From: Thermodesulfobium sp. 4217-1
GTDB lineage: Bacteria; Thermodesulfobiota; Thermodesulfobiia; Thermodesulfobiales; Thermodesulfobiaceae
Direction: 5' to 3'
NCBI RefSeq assembly: GCF_039822205.1
Contig: NZ_JBAGBW010000003.1
Coordinates: 47,983-111,982, forward strand
Length of the DNA stretch: 64,000 nucleotides
Position numbers and translations under genes: made by a program. Shown piece after piece: positions 54,034 to 61,299 of the stretch (the first letter of the stretch is position 1; every line of letters begins with the position of its first letter). Under the pieces are notes generated by a model. That model saw only the letters and a program-made list of their open reading frames with translations, searched no databases and was not told the origin of the DNA.

Positions 54034-54507
54034 TTATGGTTTTCTTTTACATTTAGGGCACATAGACAAATGTTTTGGGATTGGTTTTCCCTCACCAAAC
54101 AATTTGTTTGCTATAAGCGTCATATCTGGTATAAAGGCGTCACATTTTGCGCACTTTATAAGGTTTATTTGATGATCGACCTTAAAATCATCGAGATTGG
54201 TGGTAACAAAATATGGGTTTGGCATGTGCTTTATTGCATTAGTAGGACAATAATCTATACACTGTCCACAACAGGTGCACTGATCTAAGTCCATATGATA
54301 GTTTATTTTGTCATCTATCTGTGATATTTTTATAACCTTTGCCGGGCAAAAGTACTGACATATACCGCATGCAATACATCTGGTGGGATCGTGTTCTGGA
54401 TAGCCGTGAAATCCCTTTGGATGCTTTGGCAAGTTAACACTCGATATATCTTCTGTTATGGGTGGCTTAAAAATATTCTCAATTAAGATTCTTATCAGTG
54501 GAAGCAT
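54034..54507 (-). CDS. Hydrogenase NuoI/HyfH-like ferredoxin subunit
   Basis: 157 residues with two [4Fe-4S] motifs (CIACGICQYFCP, CTCCGQCIDYCP), as in complex I NuoI and group 4 hydrogenases, conducting electrons to the small subunit. A C-terminal extension has CAKC and, 30 residues on, CPKC: a probable zinc or rubredoxin-like site, also seen in HycF/HyfH. Last gene of the operon; ATG with SD GGAGAC. Confidence 0.85.
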   Translation of the reverse strand: MLPLIRILIENIFKPPITEDISSVNLPKHPKGFHGYPEHDPTRCIACGICQYFCPAKVIKISQIDDKINYHMDLDQCTCCGQCIDYCPTNAIKHMPNPYFVTTNLDDFKVDHQINLIKCAKCDAFIPDMTLIANKLFGEGKPIPKHLSMCPKCKRKP

Positions 54508-54531: not shown

Positions 54532-55473
54532 TTAAACATGTGTGAAAAATGCTAATAAAAGCCCTAATATAGAAATTGGCCAGGTAAATTTTACAAATAT
54601 ATTAATTGCCTGATTAAGCTCAATTCTTGCTGTTGCGGCTTCTAATAATGAGAGCAGCGATGCGAATACAAAGCATATTAATATTATTGAGATTAATATA
54701 AGATTTGTTGGTATGATGAATATTGGTAAAAATAGATAAGAAAATAAAAATCCCAAAATAACCCACTCCATAAAATGCGAGATTTCAAAAAGCGCAAGGG
54801 CAGGCCCGCTTGCCTCTACCGTAGGTCCCTCCAATATTTCTTGTTCAGCATTTGGTATTGAAAAGGGATTAAGCTTTAGCTTCGCAAGTGAACACAAAAT
54901 AAATATCGGAATAAATATGATTTTTAAAAAGATTGATGTGGTATTAAAACCCTTTGCAGCAAGGTCAAATAAATTAAAAGTTGGGGATCCGTTTACGCTA
55001 AAAGCTAGTGCCGTAATGATCAATATCATTGGCACGTTGTATGCAAAAAGAAGTTGGGCCTTTCTTGATGCTCCTATTTGACCAAATATAGAGTTCGTAA
55101 AGTATCCAAATAAAAGATAACAAATAGTAGGCACTTCAGAGAGATAAAATATTACTATAAGATCGAATGGTATTTTGTGTGAGTTAAACTTGACAAATGG
55201 TAATGGAATAGGAAAAAGAGAGAGAGCAATTGATATGGACACTACGCCTATAATTGGGGTTATAAAATACAGAACCCATGGCATATTTTCTGGGATTAAG
55301 GTTTCTTTGCTAAATAACTTTATAATATCGTAGAAGCCTTGTGTCAGTGGAGGACCAATTCTAAGCTGCATTTTTGCCTTTAACTTTCTTCTAAATGAGT
55401 CCATAAGACCTCCAAGCAAGAATGAAAAGAGAAAACCGGGAAAAATTAAAATTGAAAGTATATATGAAATCAT
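54532..55473 (-). CDS. Hydrogenase NuoH/HyfC-like membrane subunit
   Basis: 313 residues, about eight helices. RIGPPLTQGFYDIIKLFSKE and the NAEQEILEGPTVEASGP segment match NuoH/HycD, the subunit that links the hydrophilic arm to the proton pumps. Overlaps the small-subunit gene by 4 bases; SD AAGGAGGG. Confidence 0.92.
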   Translation of the reverse strand: MISYILSILIFPGFLFSFLLGGLMDSFRRKLKAKMQLRIGPPLTQGFYDIIKLFSKETLIPENMPWVLYFITPIIGVVSISIALSLFPIPLPFVKFNSHKIPFDLIVIFYLSEVPTICYLLFGYFTNSIFGQIGASRKAQLLFAYNVPMILIITALAFSVNGSPTFNLFDLAAKGFNTTSIFLKIIFIPIFILCSLAKLKLNPFSIPNAEQEILEGPTVEASGPALALFEISHFMEWVILGFLFSYLFLPIFIIPTNLILISIILICFVFASLLSLLEAATARIELNQAINIFVKFTWPISILGLLLAFFTHV

Positions 55474-55892
55474 CTTCCCTCCTTAAAAACCTCTATGGCT
55501 TTTTGTAATCCCAAAAATATATTCTTAGGATGAGCAGAGCATCCTCCGACATAAGCGGTTACAGGAATTAAATTATGGGCAGGACCTACAATGCTATATC
55601 CATCTGTAAATACCCCAGAACTTATAGAACACGCGCCAATGCACACAATTACCTTTGGGTTTGGCAGCATATCGTATATTCTTAAAAGAGGTTCCTTAGA
55701 TCTTGCTGTTACAGGGCCAGTGACCAGACATATATCTGCATGCTTTGGGCTGCCAACTAATTTGCAGCCCAGTCTCTCTACATCGTATCTTGATGCAAGA
55801 AGAGCTACAATTTCTATGTCGCAGCCATTGCAAGAACCTGTATTCAAATGAAACAACCAGGGTGATTTACTTCTTCCAATCTTAAAAATCAT
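55470..55892 (-). CDS. [NiFe] hydrogenase small subunit (NuoB-like)
   Basis: 140 residues. Proximal [4Fe-4S] ligands: NTGSCNGCDIE (two Cys), CIGACSISSG and VGGCSAHP. Carries electrons between the NiFe site and the ferredoxin subunits. One base separates it from the antiporter-like gene upstream. Short single-cluster type as in energy-converting hydrogenases. Confidence 0.93.
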   Translation of the reverse strand: MIFKIGRSKSPWLFHLNTGSCNGCDIEIVALLASRYDVERLGCKLVGSPKHADICLVTGPVTARSKEPLLRIYDMLPNPKVIVCIGACSISSGVFTDGYSIVGPAHNLIPVTAYVGGCSAHPKNIFLGLQKAIEVFKEGR

Positions 55893-55893
55893 T

Positions 55894-57183
55894 TTAATTT
55901 ACCACCTTAATCAAGCTATTGATGACGTTTATTAAATAGTTTGGGTATATACCAAAATATAAAATTGCTATACATAAAATTGTGAGCGAGATATTTGTAA
56001 CAAATTTTTCTTCAAAACTTATCTTGTTTTTTGCCATGCTTTCTTCACTTCCCCAAAAAATTTTATGATAGGCACGGATATAGTAAATAAGAGTCAAGCA
56101 GCTTGCAATAATTAGAAAGATGCTAAGCAACAAGCTTTTATCAAAAGCTGCCTGATAAAGTAACAATTTTCCAGAAAAACCAGGCAAGAAAGGAGCGCCT
56201 ATTAGGCTAAGTGAGAAAATCAAAAATGTTATTGATAAAAATGGATATTTTTTTGCAATGCCGCTTAATTCTGATATATTTGTGGTGCAAAAAATACTTT
56301 CAATTTTGTCAGTTATAACGAATAGCCCAAATTTTGAAACAGAATGATTTATTAATATTATTATGGCTGCGATTAATCCTAAACTATTTCCAATTGCAAG
56401 CGCTAAAAGAAAGTAGCCGGTGTCATCAATTGTCGAATAAGAGAGAAGTCTTTTTAGATCTTTTTCAAGGTATGCCATTATTGCTCCGACAACAATTGAT
56501 AATATTGCCACGAAGAACAGTATATTGTTTAGATCTTGATATGTTATAAATGATATCGACTTAACTTCTTGCAATATGAAGAACAATAGGTAAAAGTCTA
56601 TTACTTCTCCGACACATACAACTGCAGATGATATTATAGGATTTGTGATGCTAACGAATTTTGGTTGCCACCAGTGAAATGGTGTGGCAGCTAACCTTAA
56701 AGATATTGCAATTATAGCTAGAAGGCCAGTAAATGAAATAAAACTTGTGCTATTTAAAATAAAAAGTAAATAATAGATTATGTTAACAATAAAATATATT
56801 TTGTAAGAGTTAAAAGATTTAATTTTCATAAATAGGAAGCCAAATGTTATTAAACTTAAGAGTTCTAACACAATGCTGTAAAGCAATGCATCGTGATTTA
56901 AGAGTGCGAATAACTGAAAGATAAATGCTATTACGTACAAAGGTGAAACTGATTTCTCGAAATCCTTAACTGACAATATGATAGAAATCATAGCAGAGAC
57001 GATAAATACCGTTATTATAAAAAATGCCCTTAAGTCAAAAGGTGAAAAAATTCCTAAGTTAATTAGATCGTATCCTAATGAAGAAAATGCAATCAAAACT
57101 AATATAAATCTTATAATTTTATTTTTTGCATTTGAAAGTAATATTAGACATATTGCTAATAATAAATCAGATATTAATACCAA
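55894..57183 (-). CDS. Hydrogenase antiporter-like subunit (NuoN/NuoM type)
   Basis: 429 residues, twelve or more helices. Key features: LRLAATPFHWWQP, lysine-bearing YLEKDLKRLLSYSTIDDTGY and GAPFLPGFSGKLLL. Member of the Mrp/NuoL-M-N family, a proton or sodium channel. TTG start with SD AAGGAGGTG. Confidence 0.88.
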   Translation of the reverse strand: MVLISDLLLAICLILLSNAKNKIIRFILVLIAFSSLGYDLINLGIFSPFDLRAFFIITVFIVSAMISIILSVKDFEKSVSPLYVIAFIFQLFALLNHDALLYSIVLELLSLITFGFLFMKIKSFNSYKIYFIVNIIYYLLFILNSTSFISFTGLLAIIAISLRLAATPFHWWQPKFVSITNPIISSAVVCVGEVIDFYLLFFILQEVKSISFITYQDLNNILFFVAILSIVVGAIMAYLEKDLKRLLSYSTIDDTGYFLLALAIGNSLGLIAAIIILINHSVSKFGLFVITDKIESIFCTTNISELSGIAKKYPFLSITFLIFSLSLIGAPFLPGFSGKLLLYQAAFDKSLLLSIFLIIASCLTLIYYIRAYHKIFWGSEESMAKNKISFEEKFVTNISLTILCIAILYFGIYPNYLINVINSLIKVVN

Positions 57184-57198
57184 GTTAACACCTCCTTG

Positions 57199-59085
57199 TC
57201 ATCTAACTAGTTGGACAATAGCTATTACTATTATCATTGAAACTATGCTCGTCACCAGCCACATCTCGTTTTCAAGCCACTTTATAGGTATATATATAAT
57301 TTCAAATGCAGTTTTTAACAAATCATTTGAAAAGTCATACCACTTGTCAGAATCTGTAAATCTGTAAAAGTTTTTTGAAAGGCTTTCAACATCGAATATG
57401 TAATCAAATGCATTGATGTTTTTTAATGAGCTTGTTTTTACCTCTCCACCGGTAAAGCTTTGAACTCTTTTGAACTTTTTGTTTGTGGCGAAAATTATTA
57501 TGATAGGAGCAAAAATAGCCACTATTGCGAATATGGCGGTAAAGCTTGCAAGGTAGCCTCCTCCAGAGGATAACAAGACCCCTAGGTTAAAGTTGAATAT
57601 TTCCTGGTTTAAATTTAAGTTAAGGCTATGAAGAGCTGGAACAAGAAGATATGAAATCAAAAATTGCGGCAATATTCCAATTAGTATGCAAAAGATTGCG
57701 AGCAGAGAAATTGAGAATATTTCAATTTTATATTTGCCTTCTTGTATATTTTTAAATTCTTCTTTTTGGAATCCAAAAAAGGCTGTTGAAGATGCCTTTA
57801 TGAAAGAAAGCAGGGTAAGAGTGCTTGCAATAAGACCAATAGCCGCAGCAAATGGATAATTTGCTTGAATTGCTGCATAATAAAACATCCATTTACTTAT
57901 AAATCCATTAAAACCCGGCACGCCTGATATTGAAAACGATCCTATAAGAAAGAGGGCAGCTGTAAATGGAAGTTTTTTAAAAAGTCCACCCATCTTTGTA
58001 AGGTCTTTGCTGCCTGTAGCGTTTTGCATTATCCCAGAGCATAAAAATAGAGTGCATTTAAATAGCCCATGATTAAGCGCGTGAAAAAGTGCGCTTGCAA
58101 TCCCAAGGGGGGTTCCAAGTCCAATTCCCGCAACCATATATCCAATTTGAGATACGGTATGAAAGGCAAGAAGTTTTTTTATCTCTGTCTGTTTTAGCGC
58201 ATACATTACGCCAATTAGTGATGTTAACGAGCCTACAGTAACTATCAGTGCGTTCCATGGTAGCGGATAGGGATACAATATTACATACATCTTTACAAGG
58301 ATATACACACCAGCTTTAACAAGGCATGCAGCATGTAAAAGTGCGCTAACAGGAGTCACAGTGTTCATGGCGAAGGGTATCCATGTGTGAAGCGGCCATT
58401 GAACAGATTTTGCCATACATGCAATTAATATTCCTAGAAGGATTATATTGGTATATATGCCAAAACTACTTCCTTCAAGTTTTGAGATAATTAGATTTCC
58501 ATGTGTACAATATGCAATAGCAATAATACCAAGTAACAGCCCGTATCCAGCAATGTGTGTCATAAGATATGCCTTTTTCGCAGAGTAGCTTGAAAGATCT
58601 CTTTCATACCAAAAGCCGATTAGTTGATAAGAACAAAGTCCAATAAGTTCAAAGAAAATATACGTCCAGATTAAATTATCACTCAATACTACTCCAAGAT
58701 ATCCACCAATAAAGAGCTGCATAAGACCAAAAAATCGGCCCATTCCATTTTTTTCGTGAGACATATACTCAATAGAATAAATGCAAACGCAAAAACTAAT
58801 AAAGGATCCAAAAAGTGCAAAAAATAAGTTAATTCCATCGGCTCTTAGTATTAAGTTCAAATTAATAATGTTGAAAAGGTTTTGGCTGAAGGGACTGGTA
58901 GAAAAAGGATGATTAATAAAATTTATGCAAAGGTATATTATGGTTAGTAAAGAAATTAGAGAAGTAATTATCGAAATAGATCCATGAAACTTGCGCGAAT
59001 TTATTTTGTGAAATAGGAAAGAGATTATACTTCCAGAAAAAAGAATTCCTATGCTTAGAAAAATTATAAAATTTTTGTCTAACAA
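57199..59085 (-). CDS. Hydrogenase antiporter-like subunit (NuoL/HyfB type)
   Basis: 628 residues, fourteen or more helices. NuoL-type core: FFELIGLCSYQLIGFWYE, WPLHTWIPFAMNTVTPVSALLHAA, KKLLAFHTVSQIGYM, HALNHGLFKCTLF and GVPGFNGFISKWM. The C-terminal part ends in a single helix (no long lateral helix is certain). With the NuoN-like subunit it forms two pumping modules. TTG start with AAAGGAGGAG. Confidence 0.92.
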   Translation of the reverse strand: MLDKNFIIFLSIGILFSGSIISFLFHKINSRKFHGSISIITSLISLLTIIYLCINFINHPFSTSPFSQNLFNIINLNLILRADGINLFFALFGSFISFCVCIYSIEYMSHEKNGMGRFFGLMQLFIGGYLGVVLSDNLIWTYIFFELIGLCSYQLIGFWYERDLSSYSAKKAYLMTHIAGYGLLLGIIAIAYCTHGNLIISKLEGSSFGIYTNIILLGILIACMAKSVQWPLHTWIPFAMNTVTPVSALLHAACLVKAGVYILVKMYVILYPYPLPWNALIVTVGSLTSLIGVMYALKQTEIKKLLAFHTVSQIGYMVAGIGLGTPLGIASALFHALNHGLFKCTLFLCSGIMQNATGSKDLTKMGGLFKKLPFTAALFLIGSFSISGVPGFNGFISKWMFYYAAIQANYPFAAAIGLIASTLTLLSFIKASSTAFFGFQKEEFKNIQEGKYKIEIFSISLLAIFCILIGILPQFLISYLLVPALHSLNLNLNQEIFNFNLGVLLSSGGGYLASFTAIFAIVAIFAPIIIIFATNKKFKRVQSFTGGEVKTSSLKNINAFDYIFDVESLSKNFYRFTDSDKWYDFSNDLLKTAFEIIYIPIKWLENEMWLVTSIVSMIIVIAIVQLVR

Positions 59086-59103: not shown

Positions 59104-59523
59104 TTATTCTGTAGAAATTGTTGCTGCCTGTTCGATTGCCCCTGTTGGACAGGCCTGAGCGCACGCAGCAACGAAATTATTTTTTTCACAAAGATTACAT
59201 TTTTGAGCTATTATTTTTACATAATGTGTGCTTTGTCTTGATATCATTTCGATTGCGCCAAATGGGCACATATAGTAGCAAGTTTTACAGCCAACGCATG
59301 CATCAGGATTTATATCAATTACTCCCTTTCTCCTATCTATAGCTTTTACAGGGCAAACCTTTTCACATATTCCACACATTGTGCAATATGTGATTTTGAA
59401 GCTTTCTGTAGATTCATTTTTTGATATAAAAATTCTTGGTTGAGATGAATTGTTTATTTCTTTGCACGCATCCATACATTTTTGACATCCAATACATTTT
59501 TTTTGATTTATTCTAAGTCTCAC
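59104..59523 (-). CDS. HycB/CooF-like polyferredoxin subunit
   Basis: 139 residues. Four Cys motifs: CIGCQKCMDAC, CTMCGICEKVCP, CVGCKTCYYMCP and CNLCEKNNFVAACAQACP, the pattern of four [4Fe-4S] clusters of HycB, CooF and HydN proteins. It can connect the hydrogenase to a formate dehydrogenase, CO dehydrogenase or ferredoxin donor; no such partner is in the window. GTG start with SD AGGAGG. Confidence 0.88.
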   Translation of the reverse strand: MRLRINQKKCIGCQKCMDACKEINNSSQPRIFISKNESTESFKITYCTMCGICEKVCPVKAIDRRKGVIDINPDACVGCKTCYYMCPFGAIEMISRQSTHYVKIIAQKCNLCEKNNFVAACAQACPTGAIEQAATISTE

Positions 59524-59532
59524 ATCTTCCTC

Positions 59533-60630
59533 CTATCTTTGAGTACATGAGAGGCATGGATCTACGCTGGCAACTATTAAGGTAGCATTTGCCAAATCGT
59601 TATTGGGCAGCATTGCTGAGAGGGCTGGAAGATTGACAAAGCTCGGGGCTCTAATCTTGTGCCTAAAGGGAACATCCGAACCATCAGATACCAGAATGTG
59701 AACGTCCTCGCCCCTTGGCGCCTCATGCCTACCTATTGCTGTACCTTCGGGAATTATTGGTCTAATTTCTTTAGCAATTGGGCCATCTGGCATAATTTTT
59801 AGAAGTTCTTTGATAATGTGTATGCTTTCCAAAATTTCTAAGAGCCTCACTTCTACTCTTGCAAAAACATCACATCCATCAGAGACGATTACTTGCCAGT
59901 CGACCATGTCGTAAGCAGCTCCTGGCTCGTCAACTTTTCTAATATCTTGTGGCATTCCAGATGCTCTTGCGACAGGTCCTACGACTGAATATGTAATTGC
60001 ATCTTCTTTTGTGAGGACCCCAACCCCTTTGGTCCTGAGTTCAATTGTTTTGTCATTCATAACTACGTCAATAAATGATTTGCAATCTTCTTCCACTTCG
60101 TTTAATACCTTAAAAATTTGTTCTAAATCTGTAATATCCCTTCTTACTCCGCCTATCGTATTAAACGAATAGTTTGCTCTGTGCCCGGTGGTTAATTCCA
60201 TTAGATCTTTTACTTTTTCCCTCGAATTCCATATTAAATAAAATACGCTTATAAAACCAATTACATGTGCTGCTATTCCTGCCCAAAGAAGGTGTGAATG
60301 AATTCTTTCAAGTTCGCTAACTACTGTTCTTAAACATTTAGCTCTTGGGGGTACGTTAACATTTCCAAGTTTTTCTACTGCCTGGACCCAGGCCATTGGA
60401 TGGGTCATACTTCATATTCCGCAAACTCTTTCGACAAGTGGAATTATTTGCCAGAAATTTTTGGTTGCAGATAGATATTCAATACTGCGATGTACGTGAC
60501 CTAAATCTATTGTAGCGCTCTTTATTCTGGAACCTTCTGCTTCAAGAGTGTATGTGGCTGGTTCTTCGAGGGCTATGTGAATAGGCCCAATCGGTAGAGA
60601 AAAACCCTTTTTTATCTCACTTTCAGACAA
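59533..60630 (-). CDS. [NiFe] hydrogenase large subunit (NuoD-like) with in-frame TGA
   Basis: One frame of 366 codons interrupted only by TGA at codon 73. Read through, it encodes R68-V-C70-G-I-TGA73-S-M-T-H77, an exact L1 motif RxCGxCxxxH with the second Cys replaced, and ends DPCLSCTQR, the L2 motif (C359, C362) typical of group 4 enzymes without a cleaved C-terminal extension (as in Ech and CooH). Sequence on both sides of the TGA is NuoD-like and continuous. TTG start with AGGAGG. Options: selenocysteine at the bridging Cys position, a nonsense mutation (TGC/TGT to TGA), or a base-call error. Not complex I, since the L2 cysteines are present. Confidence 0.85.
60385..60406 (-). other. Stem-loop just after the TGA (possible SECIS-like element)
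   Basis: GACCCA and TGGGTC form a 6-bp stem starting 6 bases after the TGA, with a 10-base loop that can form two more pairs (CC/GG). I do not see the bulged U and GU apical loop of the E. coli element with confidence, and these bases also encode conserved residues, so this may be chance. Confidence 0.25.
60412..60414 (-). other. In-frame TGA codon at the L1 cysteine position (candidate selenocysteine)
   Basis: The only interruption in the large-subunit frame. The next ATG (60408) is two codons further, has no SD of its own and would give a protein lacking L1. Confidence 0.6.
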
Positions 60631-61087
60631 TTTTGTCCTCCTGAACTTTATTTTTTCTTATTAAAATTTTTTCTGTTTCTTGTTTAAGAAGAGGCATTTT
60701 TAATTCTTTTTGTGATGTAAGTAGAAGTCCATTTTTTACGTCTTTATTGTCAGTAAAATCAATGCCAAACATTTCAAAACACTCACTTTCTCCCCAATTG
60801 GCATTTGGATATATTGAAGTTATACTGTTATATGTGGCAGGGAGGTTTTTCTTGAATTGGAATGAAAATAAATGACCCTCAATATCGTATAGATTTTCCA
60901 AAATTATTGATTTTTCATCTTCAAGATCCAAATGCGCATTGACCAGCACGAACCTTGCATCAATTGACCTCATCACAATAGCAATTTCTAAAGGATTTTC
61001 GTCAGTGGTGTTTCTATAAATGCCTTTGTCTAAGACACAGGAATTTTTGATCTTTTCAAAGATAATGCTTAAGTTTTGTTTTTTCAT
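60623..61087 (-). CDS. Hydrogenase NuoC/HycE-N-like subunit
   Basis: About 154 residues. The WGESECFEMFGIDFTDN block corresponds to the NuoC signature W-x-E-R-E-x-x-D-M-F-G-I. Hydrophilic structural subunit binding the large subunit; in E. coli HycE it is fused to it. First gene of the operon. ATG at 61087 or 61108 (seven residues longer); neither has a perfect SD. Overlaps the large-subunit gene by 8 bases. Confidence 0.82.
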   Translation of the reverse strand: MKKQNLSIIFEKIKNSCVLDKGIYRNTTDENPLEIAIVMRSIDARFVLVNAHLDLEDEKSIILENLYDIEGHLFSFQFKKNLPATYNSITSIYPNANWGESECFEMFGIDFTDNKDVKNGLLLTSQKELKMPLLKQETEKILIRKNKVQEDKIV

Positions 61088-61299
61088 AAAGTTACTCTCG
61101 CCCCTCATTAAAATTTATTTATAAATATTACTTTTTTATAGCAATGCATTTCATAATCATTTTATAATAAAAAATACTTATTTTTTAATAAATTAAATTT
61201 ACTAATTTCTTAGACAATTCTAAATTTTCTCAATCTTGTAAATGGTTACACTTTTAAGTTAATTTAGTAAAATTCATAAATAGTTAGGAGGTAAATTGA

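Follow-up and report, generated by a model that had tools for sequence, protein, structure and literature searches.

In [NiFe] hydrogenases the first cysteines of the L1 and L2 motifs are terminal ligands of Ni, while the second cysteines bridge Ni and Fe. The [NiFeSe] enzymes HysA of sulfate reducers (group 1) and FruA and VhuU of methanogens (group 3) have one selenocysteine (Sec) in place of a Ni-binding cysteine. It is located at the first cysteine of L2 (UxxC), and Sec at this position is the definition of [NiFeSe] hydrogenases in use. In all [NiFeSe] hydrogenases known to us Sec is a terminal Ni ligand. This terminal position anchors the current account of the benefit of selenium, i.e. 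hydrogen evolution and recovery from oxygen. Tuning of redox and proton chemistry and easier repair have been argued for the known enzymes.

An inventory of 119 prokaryotic selenoprotein families from May 2026 has hydrogenase large subunits only with UxxC in L2 and contains no group 4 hydrogenase (PMC13188914), in agreement with older surveys (PMC1794560, PMC9312934, PMC5029168, PMC1914089). This agrees with the statement in an earlier note on the DNA described here that no enzyme with Sec at the second L1 cysteine is known. Our full-text literature search for Sec in L1, in group 4 or in HycE yielded no report, with subscription journals mostly outside its scope.

We analysed a window of 64,000 nt from Thermodesulfobium sp. 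4217-1, by which we mean the whole stretch to which the coordinates below refer. It encodes a group 4 large subunit with an in-frame TGA at the second cysteine of L1 (CxxU when read as Sec), whereas HysA, FruA and VhuU carry Sec in L2. The L2 of the window protein is DPCLSC, without the Sec by which [NiFeSe] enzymes are now defined. The best solved full-length relative is MbhL (6cfw_L), in which L1 and L2 are at the same places and the chain ends with DPCLSCTDR as the window protein ends with DPCLSCTQR. In contrast to the window enzyme, Mbh is archaeal, has an Mrp antiporter module and carries a cysteine at the second L1 position. HycE of formate hydrogenlyase (7z0s_E, group 4a) is also similar over the full length. 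Yet HycE has cysteines at both L1 positions, and the window protein is unfused and lacks a C-terminal extension.

Large-subunit gene and operon

The large-subunit gene is located on the minus strand (60630 to 59533) and starts with TTG at 60630, six bases 3' of AGGAGG. Its frame consists of 365 codons and a stop, equalling 365 residues with TGA counted as Sec, and the TGA is the sole internal stop. It occupies positions 60412 to 60414 (minus strand), is codon 73 and turns L1 into VERVCGI-U-SMTHP, U denoting the TGA. In alignments it coincided with the second L1 cysteine of Mbh and HycE, both of which matched the read-through protein over the full length (E values of 2e-79 for Mbh alpha, 6cfw_L, and 3e-75 for HycE, 7z0s_E). 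This bears out the assertion of the earlier note that the frame is interrupted by nothing but a TGA at this very cysteine. The best family models were NuoD/FpoD-like. L2 at the C-terminus (59533 to 59562, minus strand) is intact and the protein stops at the usual processing site; as DPCLSCTQR is directly followed by the stop codon there is no C-terminal peptide to remove. The Ni-ligand positions are C70, U73, C359 and C362, a set which is complete only if Sec counts.

By the established ligand roles in [NiFe] hydrogenases, a TGA at the second L1 cysteine falls on a bridging position. The assignment as a Ni-Fe bridge is inferred and rests on the alignment because the predicted structure was poor around L1 and L2. 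The AlphaFold2 model of the large subunit had a mean pLDDT of 60, with L1 and L2 mostly below 50. The L1 motif with TGA occurred once in the window and in none of 100 shuffles. A chance origin of the TGA was ruled out by the finding that the same codon is TGA in all four genus members and that 20 genomes from other phyla share it.

The partner genes of the operon are on the minus strand as well. They code for a NuoC-like 30 kDa subunit (60623 to 61108), a HydN/HycB-like polyferredoxin with several 4Fe-4S sites (59104 to 59523), antiporter-type membrane subunits similar to NuoL (57199 to 59085) and to NuoN/M (55894 to 57183), a NuoB-like hydrogenase small subunit (55470 to 55892), a NuoH-like membrane subunit (54532 to 55473) and a NuoI/HycF-like 4Fe-4S subunit (54034 to 54507). 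All seven ORFs are uninterrupted, so that the description of L2 and the partner subunits as intact in the earlier note was accurate. Judged by its sequence, the operon encodes a group 4 hydrogenase that is membrane-bound and energy-converting. It combines genes for a small subunit, for membrane subunits of the NuoH and NuoL/N types and for Fe-S subunits, and the homology of the large subunit to NuoD/HycE/MbhL extends from end to end, a criterion for group 4. No subgroup was assigned, and H2 activity is inferred.

Retention of the codon and capacity for Sec insertion

The genome of Thermodesulfobium sp. 4217-1 comprises 2.0 Mb, those of three other species of the genus 1.8 to 1.9 Mb. All three have a large subunit of 93 to 96% identity with TGA at the same codon, not TGC or TGT, and two of the four TGA-bearing genomes are single-contig. 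For all pairs within the genus dN/dS was 0.02 to 0.17 upstream and 0.07 to 0.10 downstream of the TGA. Hence purifying selection is strong on both sides of the codon. With TGA retained in the genus and dN/dS low on either side, neither a dead gene nor an error in sequencing is tenable. The alternative of a dead catalytic subunit, also considered in the earlier note, thus found no support.

That note had proposed a search for selA, selB, selC and selD, and all four are present in the genome. selC, coding for a tRNA-Sec with the anticodon TCA, precedes the selB match by 37 nt. At least two further genes contain a TGA, although our listing is not exhaustive: SelD itself has one in CAG-U-AAK and an FdhA paralog has one in RI-U-HSS. 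Very probably, the cell uses TGA for Sec in these genes too. Like the hydrogenase gene they combine the TGA with a downstream hairpin and share the decoding system, yet their protein families are unrelated to it. HypF, the sole Hyp maturation gene looked for, is encoded in the genome.

TGA in L1 of hydrogenases from other phyla

About 85,000 species genomes were scanned for the motif E-R-x-C-G-x-TGA-x-x-x-H. In 16 of 36 matches the frame was that of a hydrogenase large subunit, and these belonged to KSB1, Calditrichota, Chloroflexota and Acidobacteriota, plus one record of the genus Thermodesulfobium. About 20 matches outside hydrogenase frames were discarded as chance. In the KSB1/Calditrichota phylum every ortholog with at least 65% identity (15 of 15) had exactly one TGA, at the same codon, while more distant homologs (about 45%) had a cysteine there. 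The TGA was also carried by four members of the Chloroflexota and by one of the Acidobacteriota. Distant homologs of G109 and G053 had TGA codons as well, but these were N-terminal, not in L1, and were rejected.

SelB was above the cut-off in 15 of 18 carrier genomes compared to 54 of 116 genomes in a broad panel. Two of the three remaining carriers have SelB-like fragments at contig ends. G130 carries TGA in L1 (L079), yet no clear SelB was found in its assembly.

This second family resembles HycE in its fused C/D domains, its C-terminal extension and an adjoining gene for a HycI-type protease. Sulfhydrogenase-like beta and gamma subunits also adjoin the large subunit. In one KSB1 operon (L047:594-7985) a Sec-containing HycE-like subunit is found together with sulfhydrogenase beta- and gamma-like subunits, which suggests an NAD(P)-linked energy-converting hydrogenase.

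In a maximum-likelihood tree the two Sec groups were placed apart, and the hypothesis of a single Sec clade was rejected (AU test, p = 6e-11). The simplest account is two origins of Sec in L1. Nested in the second Sec group is an ortholog with a cysteine codon (TGT; L031, G058:C226:1297-2394), the genome of which still has SelB. The stem after this codon is weakened (ACAGUA/UAUUGU) and the GG loop is absent. This suggests a reversion from Sec to Cys, although placement of L031 outside the second Sec group was not quite excluded by the AU test (p = 0.056).

RNA structure after the TGA

To assess selection on the RNA, we used the 135 degenerate columns with an invariant amino acid in an alignment of 18 second-family genes. 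The codon was invariant in only six of these, i.e. ATA just 5' of the TGA and CAC, AGT, ACG, TAC and TGT at +4, +5, +6, +8 and +9. Five of the invariant codons form a hairpin 11 to 27 nt after the TGA, ACAGUAC-(GGN)-GUACUGU or a shortened version of it; about 18 nt separate the TGA from the loop. At other sites in these genes AGT is a minor codon for serine (37 of 420). The codon invariance is due to selection on the RNA, as a bacterial SECIS element would show. Column covariation in this family was not informative due to too little variation, with 29 of 500 shuffles reaching the observed level.

In the window gene the candidate for the apical hairpin of a SECIS is GCCUG-GGUC-CAGGC (60380 to 60393, minus strand), the loop of which begins 24 nt after the TGA. 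It is identical in all four genus members, so that the search for a SECIS suggested in the earlier note did return a hairpin of this type. All 12 degenerate codons from +5 to +18 were invariant in the four species, and no other such run in this gene is as long (P = 0.001 for this stretch itself, 0.15 for a run of equal length at any place). A hairpin of the same type follows 1.5% of codons in the window genes, but the peptide AWVQA favors its formation here, as 30% of synonymous recodings produce one. The folding energy was no better than that of shuffles, an Rfam scan around the TGA gave no credible match to an RNA family, and in this species a competing fold exists. Taken alone, the RNA case for the window species is weak. 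A hairpin just after the TGA with a G in the apical loop, the criterion for a SECIS, is present; statistically it is weaker than in the KSB1/Chloroflexota family. A SECIS in the window gene is plausible, not proven.

The gene of an Acidobacteria MAG (L058, 407-439, minus strand) has the same TGA, but the 7-bp hairpin at this place is a different one (CACUCCAC/GUGGAGU). Its register is shifted, and the amino acids around it are changed. Column counts cannot credit a hairpin in a shifted register.

All Sec forms of the two groups, L047, L049 and L058 among them, have an ATA directly before the TGA (60415-60417 of the window, minus strand). This ATA is invariant among the 18 genes, the other Ile codons of which vary. 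An effect of this context on UGA decoding is possible.

Interpretation of the TGA codon

We propose that SelB and tRNA-Sec decode the UGA, aided by the hairpin just downstream. The product would serve as catalytic subunit in an energy-converting group 4 hydrogenase of the membrane, with selenium in place of sulfur as the second L1 ligand, which bridges Ni and Fe. The earlier note had raised this reading, and we consider it very probably right that TGA is a Sec codon and that selenium bridges Ni and Fe in the product; protein, selenium or metal data are lacking. The codon, its conservation, purifying selection, the Sec machinery and the RNA conservation in the second family can be read from the DNA, and the Sec reading gains further weight from an independent family of other phyla, in which this substitution recurs and the hairpin is strongly conserved. 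Translation through the TGA with Sec is inferred from this codon evidence, without protein data, and is highly likely. Somewhat less certain is a bridging selenium in a working Ni-Fe site, as here insertion of the Ni-Fe cofactor is inferred and the bridging geometry is deduced from homology to Mbh and HycE.

It is conceivable, but unlikely, that Sec is inserted without a standard Ni-Fe(CN)2CO site being formed and that this relative of complex I has another metal site or a redox role. Such a view could draw on the NuoD/FpoD-like family models and on the loss of the cysteines in many relatives of this fold. Yet all four ligand positions are filled (C, U, C, C), the remaining residues of L1 and L2 match those of the solved Mbh and HycE, and HypF is encoded in the genome. 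Moreover, the second family has the HycI protease gene next to a large subunit with a HycE-like C-terminal extension. We give even less credit to a split gene, where translation stops at the TGA and restarts at an ATG two codons on, resulting in an N-terminal peptide and a protein of 291 residues. One Ni-Fe ligand would be lost, the second family has no conserved start at the corresponding codons, and both the codon conservation in the hairpin and the link to SelB would remain unexplained, whereas TGA AGT ATG is retained in all four genus members and the ORF finder begins its frame at that ATG.

A pseudogene or sequencing error with a dead catalytic subunit would account for the stop codon breaking the frame, but can practically be dismissed in view of the recurrence of the TGA in four genomes, single-contig ones among them, and in 20 of other phyla, and of the purifying selection on either side. 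Equally hard to maintain is the view that a suppressor or near-cognate tRNA reads the UGA as an ordinary Cys or Trp. Homologs do have a cysteine at this position; on the other hand a dedicated tRNA-Sec, SelA, SelB and SelD are present, and the known selenoprotein genes of the genome have TGA as Sec codon.

A group 4 hydrogenase with Sec in place of the second L1 cysteine would be a new variation on the [NiFeSe] theme, although proof at the protein level is missing. Quite probably there is a second structural class of [NiFeSe] enzymes, with a selenium bridge in group 4, which was invented at least twice, in the genus of the window and in the family found in KSB1/Calditrichota, Chloroflexota and Acidobacteriota, and lost to Cys at least once. 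The two independent origins of Sec in L1 suggest selection for it. The benefit is again an inference; the likeliest may be that selenium tunes redox and proton chemistry or facilitates repair of damage by oxidation or sulfide. If true, selenium in the bridge is a natural experiment on the other half of the Ni-Fe site, where it is in contact with both metals and should change their electronic coupling. The range of [NiFeSe] enzymes would then include group 4, whose members are closely related to respiratory complex I. Hydrogenases with Sec in L1 are probably under-counted because automated annotation would cut the genes at the TGA or start after it.

Other genes of the genome

Two FdhA-like paralogs are about 6 kb apart (G000:C14:17663-20341 and G000:C14:23902-26568; L123 and L124), one of them with TGA, the other without a stop. 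Another hydrogenase-like large subunit (L004, G000:C4:17738-17938) has the sequence RLCGVSSVSH with a serine at the position of the second L1 cysteine. Perhaps the complex of this subunit has lost its Ni-Fe site.
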